A stretch of 64,000 nt of DNA. Origin: Arthrobacter sp. ISL-65. Its GTDB lineage: Bacteria > Actinomycetota > Actinomycetes > Actinomycetales > Micrococcaceae. Under the pieces are notes generated by a model, which saw only the letters and a list, made by a program, of their open reading frames with translations, searched no databases and had not been told where the DNA came from. Below, piece after piece: positions 15,614-16,951 of this stretch; within the stretch, counting starts at the first letter, position 1; the number at the start of each line of letters is the position of its first letter. Location of the stretch: assembly GCF_018613795.1 (NCBI RefSeq), contig NZ_JAGGPN010000063.1, positions 1 through 64,000 on the forward strand. Reading direction: 5' to 3'. Made by a program: the position numbers and the translations under genes.

Positions 15614-16213
15614 ATGGATGCACGGCTGGAAGCCGTCAGGGATACGGTACTGGCGCGGAACCCCGGTGAGTCCGAGTTCCACCAGGCGGTGGTCGAGGTG
15701 TTCGAAAGCCTTGGCCCCGTCCACGACCGGCACCCCGAGTTCCTTGAAGCCGCCATCCTGGAACGGCTCTGCGAGCCCGAACGCCAGATCATCTTCCGGG
15801 TGCCGTGGACCGACGACTCCGGGCGGGTGCAGATCAACCGCGGCTTCCGCGTGGAGTTCAATTCAGCGCTCGGCCCCTATAAGGGCGGGCTCCGGTTCCA
15901 CCCCTCCGTTTACCTCGGGATCGTGAAATTCCTCGGCTTCGAGCAGATCTTCAAGAACGCGCTGACCGGCATGCCCATCGGCGGCGGCAAAGGCGGTTCC
16001 GACTTCGACCCCCGCGGCCGCACCGACGCCGAAGTCATGCGCTTCTGCCAGTCGTTCATGACCGAGCTCTACCGCCACATCGGCGAGTACACCGACGTGC
16101 CAGCCGGCGACATCGGCGTGGGCGGCCGCGAAATCGGCTACCTCTTCGGCCAGTACAAACGCATCACCAACCGCTACGAATCAGGCGTCCTGACAGGCAA
16201 GGGCATCTCCTGA
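15614..16213 (+). CDS. gdhA: Glutamate dehydrogenase, N-terminal half (stopped by an in-frame TGA)
   Basis: 199 residues matching domain I of NADP-type glutamate dehydrogenase, which makes glutamate from 2-oxoglutarate and ammonia. The substrate blocks [13 protein letters not shown] and [15 protein letters not shown], with the catalytic Lys in the latter, are intact, as is [11 protein letters not shown]. The frame stops at TGA 16211-16213 after GKGIS, where I expect Trp (TGG) followed by GGS. The same frame continues open to 16951; together the halves would make 445 residues, the normal length. ATG at 15614 has GAGGA upstream; a TTG at 15581 does not. Confidence 0.88.
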
Positions 16214-16228
16214 GGAGGTTCCCTGGTG
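16213..16228 (+). promoter_or_regulatory. Consensus ribosome binding site overlapping the gdhA stop codon
   Basis: The sequence TGAGGAGGT starts with the premature stop. The A of TGA completes GAGGAGGT, a near-perfect anti-16S match. GTG at 16226 in the same frame follows six bases later. This is an ideal layout for restarting translation of the second half of glutamate dehydrogenase. Confidence 0.7.
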
Positions 16229-16951
16229 CGGCCCGAAGCCACCGGCTTCGGCACGGTGATCTTCACCGAAGAGATGCTCAAGACGCGGGGCTCATCCTTC
16301 GACGGGCAGCGCGTGGTGGTTTCCGGCTCCGGCAATGTTGCCATCAATGCCATCGCCAAGGCCCAGGCGCTCGGCGCCAACGTGGTGGCCTGCTCCGACT
16401 CCTCCGGGTACGTCGTGGACGAGGCCGGGATCGACGTCGGGCTGCTCCGCCAGGTCAAGGAAGTGGAACGCGGACGCCTCAAGGACTACGTTCTGCGCCG
16501 TTCCGGCGTTTCCTACGTGGAGGCCGACTCCGTCTGGGACGTCGACGCCACTGTCGCCTTGCCGTGCGCCACGCAGAACGAGCTCGACGGCGGTGCTGCC
16601 GCCCGGCTGGTCCGCAACGGACTGCTCGCCGTCGGCGAAGGCGCCAACATGCCCTCCACCCGGGACGCCGTGGCAGTCTTCCAGGAGGCGGGCGTGCTGT
16701 TTGGCCCCGGCAAGGCCGCCAACGCAGGCGGGGTGGCCACTTCGGCGCTGGAGATGCAGCAGAACGCGAGCCGCGACTCCTGGTCCTTCGAACACACGGA
16801 ACAGCGCCTTACGGACATCATGGTGGGAATCCACCACCGCTGCGCCTCCACCGCGGACGAGTACGGTGAGCCCGGCAACTACGTGCTGGGCGCGAACATC
16901 GGCGGCTTCGTCAAAGTGGCGGACGCGATGCTCGCGCAGGGGTTGATCTAG
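16226..16951 (+). CDS. gdhA: Glutamate dehydrogenase, C-terminal NADP-binding half
   Basis: 241 residues from GTG 16226, in frame with the upstream half. It starts [11 protein letters not shown] and contains the Rossmann turn VVSGSGNVA, the block PCATQNELD and the [14 protein letters not shown] signature of NAD(P)-glutamate dehydrogenases. No further stop or frameshift is seen. The split falls at the boundary between the substrate and nucleotide domains. It could be a restarted second subunit, part of a broken gene, or the result of a one-base sequence error. Confidence 0.85.

Follow-up and report, generated by a model that had tools for sequence, protein, structure and literature searches.

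A premature TGA at the domain boundary of the NADP-type glutamate dehydrogenase gene of Arthrobacter sp. ISL-65, probably a recent nonsense mutation in a dispensable gene

The stretch of DNA analysed here, referred to as the window, covers positions 1 to 64,000 of contig NZ_JAGGPN010000063.1 of Arthrobacter sp. ISL-65 (64,000 nucleotides). Its forward strand carries gdhA, encoding an NADP-type glutamate dehydrogenase and containing a single in-frame stop (15614..16951; 95.7% DNA identity to the orthologue L002). The frame from 15614 to 16948 is interrupted solely by a TGA at codon 200 (16211..16213, + strand), and the gene ends with the terminal stop TAG at 16949-16951. The first open half (15614..16213, + strand; 199 codons plus TGA) holds the N-terminal domain, matched in Pfam by PF02812; the second half is matched by PF00208. 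From a possible restart at GTG, codon 205, an open stretch runs to the normal stop (16226..16951, + strand; 241 aa), its product covering most of PF00208, the dinucleotide-binding domain, plus the C-terminal helix. The upstream region (15444..15613, + strand) aligns throughout with that of the intact relative L002, to which its final ~100 bases are nearly identical. Apart from the TGA, gene and upstream region are intact in appearance, and no further lesion was found in gdhA. The initial annotation had placed two halves in one frame, totalling 445 residues and separated by this TGA only, and its coordinates and geometry are correct.

With the stop counted as one residue, the read-through protein is 445 residues long; its score against NCBIfam NF006929 is 757 bits (cut-off 536). 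The separate halves score 371 and 364 bits, both below the cut-off, so that one continuous chain exceeding it is obtained only with the stop read through; on the profile the halves adjoin (3-198 onto 5-199; 1-245 onto 202-445). Compared with the family NF006929 / PRK09414 (solved relatives 5ijz and 5gud), the gene is alike in that its whole length and both domains match, and differs by the premature stop at codon 200 and by halves that each fall below the cut-off. The read-through protein as modelled by AlphaFold2 (40 sequences; mean pLDDT 73.5; pTM 0.73) has a non-helical segment at residues 186-208, flanked by helices 171-185 and 209-223, with pLDDT below 50 at residues 188-205. In this model TGA and GTG both sit in the predicted interdomain linker which, together with the Pfam division of the halves, upholds the earlier description of a split at the domain boundary. 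The C-terminal helix packs against the first domain in solved homologues; by analogy, association of the two halves is conceivable.

Codon 200 is TGG in all 29 of the closest orthologues in the genus (L002-L030), as had been expected of a Trp codon at this place. The lesion is thus absent from the orthologues of close relatives, and in 142 of 206 genus genomes the gene is full-length without stops. The same TGA, which had been proposed as something to look for in related genomes, was absent from all relatives searched: no second TGA at codon 200 was seen in the genus rows, and a degenerate pattern with TGA inside the conserved motif gave 0 exact matches in the 84,980-species collection genome_contigs, a search by exact motif matching that misses divergent variants and in a collection from which the window's own genome may be absent. 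As a control, the pattern does recover the window's site. The genome_contigs matches listed are to relatives such as Pseudarthrobacter albicanus, whose protein is 92% identical, and species of Arthrobacter. Neither in the genus orthologues nor in genome_contigs was the split kept in more than one lineage, and a conserved split of gdhA was therefore rejected.

The best protein match is L002 (genome G090). At the DNA level, L002, L005 (G027) and L004 (G143) differ from the gdhA of the window by 58, 57 and 62 bases, respectively. Over 25,278 collinear columns, two-against-two sites shared with the window numbered 204 for G090, 129 for G027 and 109 for G143, from which G090 is probably the sister of the window's genome among these three; a tree of gdhA only leaves the sister relation of L002 with a support of 0.215. 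In G143, otherwise collinear over this region, no long match was found for two stretches of the window, 22310-26705 and 44711-48642; the former is matched in G090 and unmatched in the fetched stretches of G027.

The stop codon overlaps a site that resembles a ribosome-binding site (RBS). The sequence GAGGAGGT occupies 16212-16219 and is followed after six bases by the GTG at 16226-16228, the distance from stop to GTG being 12 nt, a geometry that allows some reinitiation. Within it, the Shine-Dalgarno-like GGAGGT (16214..16219, + strand) also forms Gly-Gly codons and is predicted to be paired with 16205-16210. The second half therefore does have a start codon and a Shine-Dalgarno site, GTG with a computed pairing energy of -12.2 kcal/mol to the 16S tail, yet one that is paired in the predicted fold. 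It had been stated that the stop completes a consensus RBS. Sequence and spacing are as described, but 'completes' is too strong, as L002 with TGG already reaches -11.4 kcal/mol at the same place; around codon 200 it differs from the window by a single base and has the identical GTG. Since L002 has this site and start and no stop, the RBS-like site is very probably older than the stop. In L004 and L005, GGAGGT is present with GTC in place of GTG, and among the 29 orthologues GGAGG occurs in 8, GTG in 7 and both in 1 (L002), so that the site is not conserved as such. It looks like a coincidence of coding, scarcely improved by the stop, because the probable sister has nearly the same site and GTG stop-free. 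The gene of L002 has 114 possible one-step stops. Four of these precede, by at most 10 codons, an in-frame start whose site scores -10 or better, and for three of the four that start is the equivalent of GTG 16226; about 3-4% of the nonsense changes open to a gene of this sort would thus mimic a reinitiation site.

The predicted RNA fold of 16170-16270 has a z of -2.5 against shuffled sequences. In a strong hairpin predicted at 16205-16219, GGAGGT pairs with the ATCTCC immediately upstream and the TGA forms the loop. On average the bases of the site are unpaired with a probability of 0.013 (99% paired), a value matched or undercut by 2.8% of 176 control positions along the gene. Prediction for L002, L004 and L005, all with TGG, also gives this 45-nt hairpin, which therefore stems from the coding sequence; with more flanking sequence included, the site opens further in L002 (unpaired probability 0.435) than in the window and is as closed in L004 and L005 (0.008). 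As modelled, the fold argues against free initiation at GTG 16226 and is compatible with initiation by a ribosome terminating at the TGA.

Signs of relaxed constraint in the gene of the window are weak. Residues unique to the window, the stop aside, are found at positions 137, 256 and 305; all 29 relatives have Ser at 137 and Gly at 305. The ratio of unique residues to unique synonymous codons is 3:2 in the window versus 47:238 summed over the 29 relatives (Fisher P 0.04). With L004 and L005 used for polarisation, 12 synonymous and, apart from the stop, 2 non-synonymous changes fall on the window branch, against 26 and 0 on that of L002 (Fisher P 0.12), small counts that presuppose L002 as sister, for which support in the gdhA tree is the low value given above. 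These polarised counts do not demonstrate decay of gdhA, and the constraint data as a whole fit a young lesion. The absence of other lesions had been advanced against an old pseudogene; it does speak against that, but not against a young one.

Across the genus, the gene is often lost. In 206 genomes, the window's own included and with one genome per species, the NADP-type gene is intact in 142 (the 144 genomes with a full-length row, minus those of the window and G089), broken in 16 and without orthologue in 47; G172, in which the pieces lie at contig ends, was counted apart. The gene is therefore missing or broken in 63 of the 206. Of the 47 absences, 39 are without any match and 8 have only a relative of 29-32% identity, and part of them may reflect gaps in incomplete genomes. 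Broken copies were found in the window, G020, G040, G053, G055, G073, G074, G086, G088, G089, G097, G128, G130, G144, G162 and G187, among which G088, G089 and G162 fall outside the limits set for genome quality (90% completeness, 5% contamination). Of the 15 broken copies besides that of the window, 14 had their lesions mapped (all but the remnant in G086); the lesions mostly differ in kind and place: one-base indels, which could in part be assembly errors, in G040, G053, G130 and G162; deletions of ~64 to 490 nt in G144 (with TAA at codon 42 in addition), G073, G055, G074 and G128; larger losses in G020, G187 and G097, whose lesion tables contain forced gaps where part of the gene is missing, so that only the large losses are meaningful. 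A TAG at codon 292, a Tyr codon, is common to G089 (L072) and G088 (L082), the latter with deletions besides, and both may have inherited the gene already broken; G073 and G128 have in common a compensated 7-base shift near nt 872. As most lesions differ, gdhA has been lost repeatedly within the genus, and with 16 broken copies and 47 genomes without orthologue among 206 it is dispensable there. Results from Corynebacterium glutamicum, by analogy, cut both ways: in the part of PMC9797636 that deals with the deletions, loss of gdhA impaired growth on ammonium and had hardly any effect with glutamine, arginine or glutamate, and the growth of a strain deleted for both gdhA and gdhB was unexpectedly good.

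In the host genome (75 contigs), no second NADP-type gene was found, and the sole other match to PF00208 scored 22.7 bits, below the cut-off of 23.4; redundancy through a second copy was rejected on this ground. Other enzymes of the pathway are open: a glutamate synthase match lies in an open frame of 1567 aa and a large NAD-type glutamate dehydrogenase (PF05088) in one of 1622 aa, both with no stop within the match, and four glutamine-synthetase-type genes are free of internal stops. The anticodon of tRNA-Trp is CCA. Of the tRNA genes that cover the 53 family matches, none was reported with the anticodon UCA, and the best score for tRNA-Sec, 41.8 bits against a cut-off of 47, was located on a tRNA-Gly gene. 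One tRNA-like element (L199; G000:C44:187854-187928), given a four-base anticodon (tttt) by ARAGORN and assigned no amino acid, is perhaps a degenerate tRNA. Programmed recoding of the TGA, as Trp or selenocysteine, was rejected because no UCA anticodon was reported and tRNA-Sec remained below the cut-off.

We consider a recent nonsense mutation in a dispensable gdhA, giving a null or near-null allele, the probable explanation. By a single base change, the Trp codon would have become TGA in gdhA, the one NADP-type glutamate dehydrogenase gene that the genome was found to contain; translation would terminate after residue 199 and yield little or no working enzyme. Ammonium would then be taken up via glutamine synthetase plus glutamate synthase and glutamate broken down via the large NAD-type enzyme, and the RBS-like site would be ordinary coding sequence for Gly-Gly-Ser-Leu-Val, as it stands stop-free in the probable sister genome. 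Of the two possibilities first put forward, a recent nonsense mutation (or error) that mimics a reinitiation site is the one that holds up, given TGG in 29 of 29 orthologues, the lack of another lesion, repeated loss in the genus and a site that very probably predates the stop. Recently inactivated bacterial genes of this kind are unitary pseudogenes by nonsense mutation. The gene of the window resembles them in its one lesion, intact relatives, alternative pathway and repeated loss in the genus, and differs in that its lesion happens to precede an RBS-like site at a domain boundary. In the literature searched, no split or pseudogene glutamate dehydrogenase like that of the window was found.

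A sequencing or assembly error, the strain really having TGG and a normal enzyme, is unlikely. The assembly is a draft in 75 contigs and the substitution stands alone in an otherwise sound gdhA, but it is a substitution rather than an indel in a run, and transitions of this kind are common mutations. Among 48 ORFs of the collinear G143 that were compared, only 2 had window matches with an internal stop, namely gdhA and one whose stop falls upstream of the start at 19191, in a 5' extension, and a general problem of the contig was rejected after this comparison. Six of the 48 were flagged including gdhA, the other five being two at the window edges, the one with the 5'-extension stop, one with a differing 5' end and one read as antisense to the TetR-type gene at 19272-19862. 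At 31867-32977, which was not flagged, the match lies in two frames around the 34th residue; the first 34 residues are read, unproven, as not part of the gene. We infer that the base is real and the allele null or nearly so, although low-level reinitiation or readthrough may occur; no sign of selection for either was found at gdhA. Very unlikely is a leaky allele in which a little full-length enzyme is made by readthrough with near-cognate tRNA-Trp. The TGA occupies a Trp codon, the protein beyond it is intact and TGA is the leakiest stop in many bacteria, yet ordinary TGA leakage would be low, and the tRNA search already described (no UCA anticodon reported, no tRNA-Sec above cut-off) gives readthrough no help.

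A two-subunit glutamate dehydrogenase, in which terminating ribosomes would restart at GTG 16226 and the domains assemble, had been put forward for this strain and is highly improbable, as only the anatomy speaks for it: the stop falls in the interdomain linker, a strong Shine-Dalgarno-like site lies within the 12 nt from stop to start, and a terminating ribosome could melt the hairpin. PMC10666635 bears on both sides. In favour are reinitiation on E. coli reporter pairs, which over short distances varied from pair to pair (a 2-nt distance cost 5, 20 and 70%), and a small set of E. coli genes around +10 nt; against are coupling that is lost almost entirely by about 20 nt and a loss of 80-100% at 38 nt in E. 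coli. The split is present in no relative searched, the site is very probably older than the stop and predicted paired, and no sign of selection on a separate second half was found. Least likely, and barely credible, is a variant in which the one-base change made an operon of two active half-enzymes: the hairpin with TGA in its loop would hide the Shine-Dalgarno site, only a ribosome terminating there would open the second start, and this gating would couple the domains one to one. Split genes of Nanoarchaeum, in the part of PMC3655853 that treats them, are likewise two separately translatable pieces of one ancestral protein; in its table rows the N. equitans halves have separate, non-neighbouring locus numbers, whereas those of the window are adjacent, in frame and one base different from relatives, and all that is said there of glutamate dehydrogenase is that N. 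equitans has it and Nst1 lacks it.

If true, the enzyme in two halves would show a single mutation splitting an enzyme into coupled subunits. Under the preferred reading, a recent nonsense mutation, the gdhA of the window is as it stands an ordinary loss-of-function allele. With the gene missing or broken in so large a part of the genus, ammonium assimilation in these soil bacteria may often depend on glutamate synthase alone.
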